A DNA stretch of 34,061 nucleotides from an uncultured Pelagibacteraceae bacterium. GTDB taxonomy: Bacteria > Pseudomonadota > Alphaproteobacteria > Pelagibacterales > AG-422-B15. The notes beneath the pieces were generated by a model, which saw only the letters and a program-made list of their open reading frames with translations, was not told the DNA's origin and ran no database searches. The stretch spans positions 1-34,061 of the forward strand of contig CABZHO010000008.1 of the NCBI GenBank assembly GCA_902525595.1, in the 5' to 3' direction. The first letter of the stretch is position 1. Each line of letters starts with the position of its first letter. A program made the position numbers and the translations under genes. Below are positions 9,925-13,234 of this stretch, in pieces.

Positions 9925-10497
9925 ATGACGAAAAGGGAAAGTCTTAGCGAAAAAAAAATATTAAGAAAATTTTTGACTAATCGAAGGTCAGAATTGAGTG
10001 TAATCTATGAGAGCAAAAATAACGCTCACATTCATCTACAACCATTGATACAGAATATAAAAAATGAAATTATTGGTACCTATATTAATTTCAGAAATGA
10101 ATTAGATACAAAAAAACTTAATCAATATTTAATAAAACAAAATATTAATATCGCACTACCCATCATAGATTTTGAAAATCAAGAAATGAATTTTTTTAAA
10201 TATGATGATAATACTGAATTAGTAAAAAATAAATACTGCATCCTTGAACCTAAATACCAAGAACAAATTATATTCCCAAAAAAAATATTAATTCCATTAC
10301 TAGGATATTCACTCAATGGCCAAAGACTTGGTTACGGAGGAGGTTATTACGATAAGTATTTTGCAAAGCATGGTGAGCGAGTACAAAAAATTGGACTTGG
10401 ATTTACATTTCAAGAAGTAAAAGATCTACCGACAGAAAAACATGATGTAAGACTGGATTGGATTTTGTCAGAGAAACATTTATATAAAGTTAGATGA
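9925..10497 (+). CDS. 5-formyltetrahydrofolate cyclo-ligase
   Basis: LIPLLGYSLNGQRLGYGGGYYDKYFA motif; located after zapA. Confidence 0.92.
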   Translation: MTKRESLSEKKILRKFLTNRRSELSVIYESKNNAHIHLQPLIQNIKNEIIGTYINFRNELDTKKLNQYLIKQNINIALPIIDFENQEMNFFKYDDNTELVKNKYCILEPKYQEQIIFPKKILIPLLGYSLNGQRLGYGGGYYDKYFAKHGERVQKIGLGFTFQEVKDLPTEKHDVRLDWILSEKHLYKVR

Positions 10498-11294
10498 AAA
10501 TAATATTTTTAGGTGATGTCATGGGTAGATCAGGCAGGCATGCACTGAGGGATCATTTGCCAGGCCTTATTGATGAACACCAAATAGATTTTGTAATTGC
10601 CAATGGTGAAAATTCTGCAGGAGGGTTTGGTATAACCGAGCCAATTTGTAAAGAACTTTATAGCTACGGTGTGAATGTTATTACAACTGGAAATCACTTA
10701 TGGGATCAGAAAGAGATAAGTAATTATATTGATAAGGACAATAAACTATTAAAACCATACAATTTTGCAGAAGGAACGCCAGGATTAGGTTTTAATACCT
10801 ACATAGATAAAAACGGAAAAAAAATTGCAGTGATTAATATAATGGGAAATTTATTTATGCGTTCTTGCGATAATGCTTTTTTTAAAGTCGAAGAAGTTCT
10901 TAAAAATATAGATACTCAAGATTTATCCTTTATTTTTGTAGATTTTCATGCTGAAGCAACAAGCGAAAAAATGGCTATGGGACATCATCTCGATGGGAGA
11001 GTAACAGCAGTTGTAGGGACTCACACCCATGTTCCAACAGCTGATGCAGTGATTATGGAGCATGGAACTGCGTTTCAAACAGATGCGGGGATGTGTGGAG
11101 ATTATGACTCAGTTATTGGTACAAAAAAAAATGAGTTTGTAAGAAAATTTGCAACTCAAGATACTGAAAGAAAACGTGTCCCTCCTGCAGATGGTGAGGG
11201 AACCTTGTGCGGCGTTATAATTGAGTCCAATAAAGAAAACTATTTAGCTCAAAGTATTATGCCAATTCGTATTGGTGGAAAAATTGGTATTTAG
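10494..11294 (+). CDS. TIGR00282-family metallophosphoesterase (YmdB-like)
   Basis: IFLGDVMGRSGR, VIANGENSAGGFGIT, TTGNHLWDQKEI, VDFHAEATSEK, VVGTHTHVPTAD. Confidence 0.94.
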   Translation: MKIIFLGDVMGRSGRHALRDHLPGLIDEHQIDFVIANGENSAGGFGITEPICKELYSYGVNVITTGNHLWDQKEISNYIDKDNKLLKPYNFAEGTPGLGFNTYIDKNGKKIAVINIMGNLFMRSCDNAFFKVEEVLKNIDTQDLSFIFVDFHAEATSEKMAMGHHLDGRVTAVVGTHTHVPTADAVIMEHGTAFQTDAGMCGDYDSVIGTKKNEFVRKFATQDTERKRVPPADGEGTLCGVIIESNKENYLAQSIMPIRIGGKIGI

Positions 11295-12038
11295 ATGGCA
11301 GGTCACTCAAAATTTAAAAACATCATGTATCGTAAGGGTGCCCAAGATAAAAAAAGAGCAAGTTTATTTTCAAAGTTATCAAAAGAGATTACAGTGGCTG
11401 CCAAATTAGGCTCACCTGATCCTGAACAGAATGCTCGTCTAAGATCAGCTATTCAGCTTGCTAAATCTTCAAGTTTCCCAAAGGAAAATATAGACAGAGC
11501 TATAAAAAAATCTTTGGATAAAGACACAGTTAATTACGATCAAATGAGATATGAAGGTTTTGGTCCCAATGGAACATCAATTATTGTTGAAGCACTGACT
11601 GATAATCGCAATAGAACTGCGTCAAATGTGAGATCTACGTTTCAAAAATTTGGTGGTTCAATGGGTGAAAGTGGTTCAGTATCTCATGCTTTTAATCATT
11701 ATGGATTTCTTCGTTATAATAAGAGCATTGCGATTGATGAAGAATTTTTCAATTATTCGATAGAGAATGGAGCGGAAGATTGTTTTTTAGATGAAGAAAC
11801 TTATGAAGCTGTTTGCACACCTGAGCAGTTGTCAAATTTTTATAGTATTCTTGAAAAAAAATATGGAGAACCAGTTTCATCAGGTTTTCAATGGAAGCCA
11901 ATTTCTTATATTAATATAGAAGGTGATAAACTTAAATCCCTCATTAATTTACTAAATGAACTAGATAATGATGAAGATGTTCAGCAAGTCTTTTCAAATT
12001 TTGAGGCAACAGATGAAGAATTAGCATTGTTTGCTTAA
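11295..12038 (+). CDS. yebC: YebC/PmpR family transcriptional/translational regulatory protein
   Basis: MAGHSKFKNIMYRKGAQDKKRASLFSKLSKEITVAAK..., FPKENIDRAIKK, TDNRNRTASNVRS, GGSMGESGSVS. Confidence 0.95.
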   Translation: MAGHSKFKNIMYRKGAQDKKRASLFSKLSKEITVAAKLGSPDPEQNARLRSAIQLAKSSSFPKENIDRAIKKSLDKDTVNYDQMRYEGFGPNGTSIIVEALTDNRNRTASNVRSTFQKFGGSMGESGSVSHAFNHYGFLRYNKSIAIDEEFFNYSIENGAEDCFLDEETYEAVCTPEQLSNFYSILEKKYGEPVSSGFQWKPISYINIEGDKLKSLINLLNELDNDEDVQQVFSNFEATDEELALFA

Positions 12039-12104
12039 TAAATTCACTTTCAAAAAAAAATATATGAATTAATCTTAGGTTATTAAGTAATTCTGATTCG
12101 CTTT

Positions 12105-12485
12105 ATGCCAGGTAGTTCTCCAAAAAGAAAAGGTGACGGTTATGAAAGAGAGCTCGCAAAATATTTCAATAAAAAAATTTTTGATGGTGAAGATAAAGTC
12201 CAACGAATGCCACTGTCTGGTGGTGGTGCGGTAAAATCTTCAGGTGGTAGTGATTTAAAGAATACACCTCATATTTATGTGGAAGCTAAAAGAACTGAAA
12301 AATTTAAAATTCACGAGTCCATGAGACAAGTCATTGATAACATAGAAATATCAAAGTCCGAATCTATGCCAGTTGTAATTACCCGAAGAAACCGAGAAGC
12401 TACAGGTGATTCACTGTGCATATTGAAACTGGATGATTTTATTGAACTGTATCGAATATTAATTGATAGCAAAAAGGGATCTTAG
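12105..12485 (+). CDS. PDDEXK-type nuclease, Holliday-junction-resolvase (Hjc)-like / phage-type putative endonuclease
   Basis: GDGYERELAKYF (helix Glu), RMPLSGGGAVKSSGGSDL (Asp), HIYVEAKRTEKFKIHESMRQ (ExK), MPVVITRRNREATGDSLCILKLDDFIELYR. Matches the E...D...ExK core and the C-terminal 'PVV..R.NR...L..DDF..L.' pattern common in this family. Confidence 0.75.
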   Translation: MPGSSPKRKGDGYERELAKYFNKKIFDGEDKVQRMPLSGGGAVKSSGGSDLKNTPHIYVEAKRTEKFKIHESMRQVIDNIEISKSESMPVVITRRNREATGDSLCILKLDDFIELYRILIDSKKGS

Positions 12486-12529
12486 GATTTGCCCTATTTA
12501 AGACAATATTTAACATTAGTTGAAGTTAT

Positions 12530-13234
12530 ATGGAAAATGAAGACCTGGTTAGTGTAAGTCAAGTAAATGACGAGTTTACTCTAATATCACTTTTTTTTAG
12601 AGCCGACATAGTAGTAAAACTAGTAATTTTAATTTTATTTGCTTCATCGATTTTATCGTGGACTATTATTATTCATAAAATACGATTATTCAGATTATTA
12701 AAAAGTATCAGTAAGCAATTTGAAGATGAATTCTGGTCAGGTCGTTCAATTAAAGAAATTACAAATAGCACTAAAGATTTACCTGACAGTCCAATTAAAT
12801 ACGTATTCTCCGAAGCTGTTGATGAGGTTGAAAAATCAAATAAAGAAACAACAAAAAAAATCGATAGTCTGATTGATCGCTTAAACCGAGTGATGGAAGC
12901 CGCTATTGACTATCAAAATGAAAAACTGTCTGAATATTTTAGCTATCTTGCAACAATTGGTGCTACCACGCCTTTTATTGGATTATTTGGAACAGTTTGG
13001 GGTATCATGAATTCCTTTCAGTCGATTGCAATATCTAGAAATACATCACTTGCAGTTGTTGCGCCAGGAATAGCTGAAGCATTATTTGCGACTGCACTAG
13101 GCTTGTTAGCCGCCATCCCTGCGGTTATAGCGTATAATATTTTCACCAGTCAAGTTAATGACGAAAACGCTCGGATGTATCGTTTTAAAGAACATTTTAA
13201 CGTTATTTTTTCTAGAGGCTTAAATACAAAATAA
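12530..13234 (+). CDS. tolQ: Tol-Pal system protein TolQ
   Basis: MotA/TolQ/ExbB domain: LATIGATTPFIGLFGTVWGIMNSFQSIA...VVAPGIAEALFATALGLLAAIPAVIAYN. Confidence 0.96.
   Translation: MENEDLVSVSQVNDEFTLISLFFRADIVVKLVILILFASSILSWTIIIHKIRLFRLLKSISKQFEDEFWSGRSIKEITNSTKDLPDSPIKYVFSEAVDEVEKSNKETTKKIDSLIDRLNRVMEAAIDYQNEKLSEYFSYLATIGATTPFIGLFGTVWGIMNSFQSIAISRNTSLAVVAPGIAEALFATALGLLAAIPAVIAYNIFTSQVNDENARMYRFKEHFNVIFSRGLNTK

Follow-up and report, generated by a model that had tools for sequence, protein, structure and literature searches.

The question raised by this locus is which enzyme resolves Holliday junctions in a bacterium whose yebC-tolQ interval lacks the genes expected there. Recombination has the resolution of such junctions as one of its core steps, and SAR11 bacteria are among the most abundant and most recombining bacteria. 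The window, by which we mean the whole stretch of 34,061 nucleotides analysed here, is a contig of a 1.0-Mb SAR11 (Pelagibacterales) genome that is 72% complete. As the initial annotation had stated, ruvC, ruvA, ruvB and ybgC are all absent between yebC and tolQ, and the place is taken by a 126-aa ORF within the gene order ymdB-yebC-ORF-tolQ-tolR-tolA-tolB-pal, which was read in the sequence, with the identities of yebC and tolQ confirmed by Pfam. The features referred to below are:

10494 to 11294, forward strand: ymdB-like gene, upstream of yebC; the order ymdB-yebC-resolvase is conserved.
11295 to 12038, forward strand: yebC, the upstream neighbour, marking the ancestral ruvC slot.
12105 to 12485, forward strand: PD-(D/E)XK nuclease of 126 aa, the proposed Holliday junction resolvase, with core residues E14, D50, E60 and K62.
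12530 to 13234, forward strand: tolQ, the downstream neighbour and slot marker, after which tolR-tolA-tolB-pal run to 16451.

The interval originally assigned to the nuclease, 12039 to 12529, is thus the entire gap between yebC and tolQ, of which the ORF fills only the part listed above.

To establish whether the ORF is a genuine gene, we compared it across the window's own SAR11 family (f1) and its sister family (f2, which we take to be the Pelagibacteraceae). Close relatives of the protein occur in 42 other SAR11 loci, and in every one of these yebC lies next upstream and tolQ next downstream, counting among the window's genes. The 76-96% identity across 20 aligned SAR11 proteins, together with dN/dS values against the window of about 0.02-0.15 (for pairs with unsaturated dS), which denote strong purifying selection, excludes a chance ORF. 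The gene is present as a single copy in 43 of 53 f1 genomes and in all 12 with a completeness of 90% or more, while the ten genomes without it are all at most 79% complete; none of the 44 f2 genomes carries it.

The protein is a member of the Pfam family PF24608 (PDDEXK_15, ‘Phage putative PDDEXK endonuclease’), which it matches with 33.7 bits at a cut-off of 27 and which is also matched by 63 of 63 relatives, and it matches PHROG 244 (‘RusA-like Holliday junction resolvase’) with an E-value of 1.4e-19. The E...D...ExK nuclease core noticed at the outset is borne out: it consists of E14/E16, D50 and E60-x-K62 (VEAK), with E14, D50, E60 and K62 invariant both in 20 SAR11 sequences and in 63 SAR11 and phage sequences, and it has the PD-(D/E)XK arrangement of an acidic residue on a helix (residues 12-25), D50, and the ExK on a strand (57-63). 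The Pfam model for archaeal Hjc, PF01870, scores 13 bits against the nuclease, below its cut-off of 21.1; canonical RuvC (PF02075) is not among the protein's Pfam matches, and an NCBIfam search returned no match. Searching the PDB by sequence with the single protein as query gave just designed proteins and chance matches, and the profile match there was not significant (E 0.74). The fold is described from an AlphaFold model built with 63 sequences (pLDDT 85.6), in favour of which a poor model from 20 close homologues (pLDDT 46) was dropped. The 12 best PDB fold matches of this model are all archaeal Hjc-type resolvases, at weak scores (E-values of at least 0.011, TM-scores of at most 0.47), and several of its viral fold matches are annotated as Holliday junction resolvases. 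Of the original description as an archaeal/phage-style nuclease, the phage half is thus upheld by the sequence relatives, and the archaeal half would hold by the fold matches, not by the sequence.

Among annotated phage proteins the closest, with 51% identity, is CRP810_gp22, which Roseobacter phage CRP-810 encodes as a ‘Holliday junction resolvase’; this phage is capable of integrating into the genome of its host, and a member of its group has been reported as a SAR11 prophage (PMC11288001). Relatives of the nuclease lie on at least 109 viral contigs. In one of these loci (L179) the gene is accompanied by genes for a primase-polymerase, a Sak4-like annealase, SSB and an integrase, and Sak4 is also found near it in two others (L155 and L204). 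In a tree of 64 sequences, eight SAR11 proteins form one clade (100/99) among phage proteins, and when 289 genomes of the class, few of them Pelagibacterales, were searched with a profile, one weak match (1.7e-4) appeared besides the window's genome. Judged from these sequence comparisons, a single capture from phage would be the simplest history of the f1 nuclease. One could also read the phage kinship as the mark of a defence or restriction nuclease, or of an integrated-phage remnant, that came to lie next to tolQ by chance. This we regard as highly improbable: PADLOC finds no match to the protein, no phage genes surround its gene in the window, and the slot kept in 42 of 42 loci, the single copy, the purifying selection and the family-wide presence largely refute it.

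We then ask what the slot would otherwise hold. The canonical RuvC profile, PF02075, matched none of 97 Pelagibacterales genomes, 56 of which are at least 90% complete, whereas the same search was positive in 270 of 289 sampled alphaproteobacteria and in controls. RuvA and RuvB were likewise not found above cut-off in any of the 97. The RuvB profile matches that did appear (the best at 34.5 bits, against a cut-off of 299) were attributed to other AAA ATPases, and RuvA profile matches spanning just about 30 residues were not counted. The loss of the canonical resolvasome, proposed from the window alone, accordingly extends through the family and the order, and an intact ruvCAB elsewhere, which would have spoken against the proposal, was not found as canonical RuvC, RuvA or RuvB in the window's genome, itself 72% complete, or in 96 relatives. 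RecG, by contrast, is retained: in the window's genome it is nearly full length (645.7 bits, just below the cut-off of 659.4, covering profile positions 6-629 of 629), as it is in most relatives tested. Since the genome searches covered RuvC, RuvA, RuvB, RecG, the f1 nuclease and the f2 protein described below, f1 genomes may hold a second resolvase, such as RusA, RecU or YqgF, beside the nuclease. A core SAR11 cluster termed ‘putative Holliday junction resolvase’, with no further identification, was listed in 2013 (PMC3686209); it could be YqgF or the f2 protein.

Of the 30 best RuvC loci in other alphaproteobacteria, 27 have yebC within the 1.5-kb flank, mostly directly upstream, and because of this adjacency the yebC-tolQ slot can be equated with the ruvC slot, as the initial annotation expected. 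The ymdB gene also precedes yebC-ruvC there, and one locus (L233) shows the arrangement in full, ymdB-yebC-ruvC-ruvA-ruvB, with ruvA and ruvB named from sequence. In another alphaproteobacterium (L235:1996-2529) canonical ruvC follows yebC, and an amidase-like ORF, named by eye, comes directly after ruvC instead of ruvA, so that ruvCAB is no longer an unbroken cluster there either. Canonical RuvC is also lacking in 15 small-genome alphaproteobacteria (G112, G121, G135, G169, G210, G230, G240, G261, G271, G274, G298, G310, G320, G349 and G378); that these use either of the SAR11 substitutes is not supported, both being missing there.

The sister family provides an informative parallel. Between yebC and tolQ it encodes another protein, about 164 aa long, with matches to PHROG 1770 (‘Holliday junction resolvase’; 3.9e-36) and to chloroplast MOC1 (6kvn; 1.9e-13). 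Its residues D7, E67, D143 and D148 align with four acidic positions that are alanine in the otherwise similar MOC1 chain 6lct; a quadruple mutant is mentioned in PMC7078210. A profile of this MOC1-type protein is found in 43 of 44 f2 genomes and in none of 53 f1 genomes, and the lone f2 exception (G072) has an assembly from which yebC is missing as well. In 5 of 23 loci read (L097, L100, L109, L110 and L111) the f2 resolvase gene is followed by a YbgC-like thioesterase ORF, which the slot lacks in f1 and in most other f2 loci. Two f2 members scanned (from loci L097-L119) had no Pfam family over cut-off, and the protein may therefore go unrecognised in SAR11 annotation.

PF02075 does not detect this MOC1-type protein, which shows that a divergent RuvC can escape the profile, and the window's genome is incomplete; one could thus suspect that a canonical RuvC is encoded elsewhere and was missed, in which case nothing was replaced. 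Set against 0 of 97 genomes with the class and the controls positive, the absence of the MOC1-type profile from every f1 genome, and RuvA and RuvB without a match over cut-off, this explanation has very little probability. The nuclease and the MOC1-type RuvC are mutually exclusive between f1 and f2, and one slot holding two unrelated resolvases in this way is hard to explain unless both fill the role of RuvC. As f2 puts a MOC1-type resolvase in the identical slot, a resolvase role is the simplest reading for the f1 nuclease.

We consider it likely that the ORF encodes the housekeeping Holliday junction resolvase of f1, derived from a tailed phage, fixed in the former ruvC slot and predicted to cleave junctions. 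The slot, the conservation, the absence of RuvC, RuvA and RuvB, the phage ancestry, the marginal fold matches to Hjc, the active-site residues, RecG and the different resolvase of f2 are the direct observations behind this assignment. The nuclease would be a stand-alone, presumably dimeric, Mg-dependent PD-(D/E)XK enzyme that acts after RecA-mediated strand exchange and makes paired nicks in opposing strands at four-way junctions, with an expected junction specificity like that of Hjc; because RuvAB is absent, RecG would have to provide branch migration, in putative cooperation with the nuclease. While it is feasible that a phage-derived nuclease serves another housekeeping role, for instance in processing intermediates of recombination or replication that are not four-way junctions, with the ruvC slot only partly related to its function, we think this unlikely. 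PD-(D/E)XK nucleases are functionally diverse, weak matches to Mrr_cat or HSDR_N occur as well in a few members of the family, and the fold E-values to Hjc are marginal, but the slot is that of a junction resolvase in f2 and of canonical RuvC in other alphaproteobacteria, and the 12 best fold matches are Hjc-type enzymes.

For the resolvase reading, the order of events can be partly traced. RuvC is absent genome-wide, the proposed substitute sits in the slot, and related lineages keep ruvC there, in line with replacement in situ. What surrounds yebC in other alphaproteobacteria points to canonical ruvC as the ancestral occupant of the slot, and, as both SAR11 families are without RuvA and RuvB, these were probably lost before f1 and f2 split. 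The earlier proposal that the nuclease substitutes for RuvC in situ is thereby largely supported by the slot, the RuvC absence and the f2 parallel, and needs qualifying as to the predecessor: since RuvABC loss is order-wide, the nuclease may have displaced either RuvC or a MOC1-type enzyme. For SAR11 as a whole it appears probable that the entire order gave up ruvCAB and that two unrelated resolvases of phage type came to occupy the slot: in the Pelagibacteraceae a MOC1-type RuvC, in the sister family an Hjc-like PD-(D/E)XK enzyme, each of which would work without RuvAB. If so, a highly recombining and hugely abundant order resolves its junctions by phage-type enzymes, which would explain the apparent gap of an order without canonical RuvABC, provide a clear example of phage genes taking over the chromosomal position of a core gene, and make available a compact means of resolving junctions independently of RuvAB that lends itself to direct testing. 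A search of the open-access literature, with subscription journals outside its scope, found no paper describing this replacement.

Among known systems, archaeal Hjc (PF01870; A. fulgidus 2wcw, Sulfolobus ST1444 2eo0) provides the best solved fold for the SAR11 nuclease, with the E, the ExK and an R-x-P-x-SG stretch in alignment; it differs in that identity is about 15% and the SAR11 protein, under the Pfam Hjc cut-off, is of bacterial/phage lineage. RecU is a PD-(D/E)XK resolvase serving where RuvC is absent, in Firmicutes, which retain RuvAB; it belongs to another family and locus, and is a weak fold match to the model at rank 26. The MOC1-type RuvC (PHROG 1770; chloroplast MOC1) shares the slot, yebC-X-(ybgC)-tolQ, and presumably the function, but has a RuvC fold unrelated to PD-(D/E)XK and, within Pelagibacterales, occurs in f2 alone. 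Closest in sequence are the phage nucleases of PHROG 244/PF24608, such as CRP810_gp22, which are of similar length, about 40-54% identical, and share the motif set KRKGDGYEREL...RAPLSGGG...D...EAKRtE; whereas their genes sit in replication-recombination modules, the SAR11 gene is chromosomal, vertically inherited and placed in the ruvC slot.
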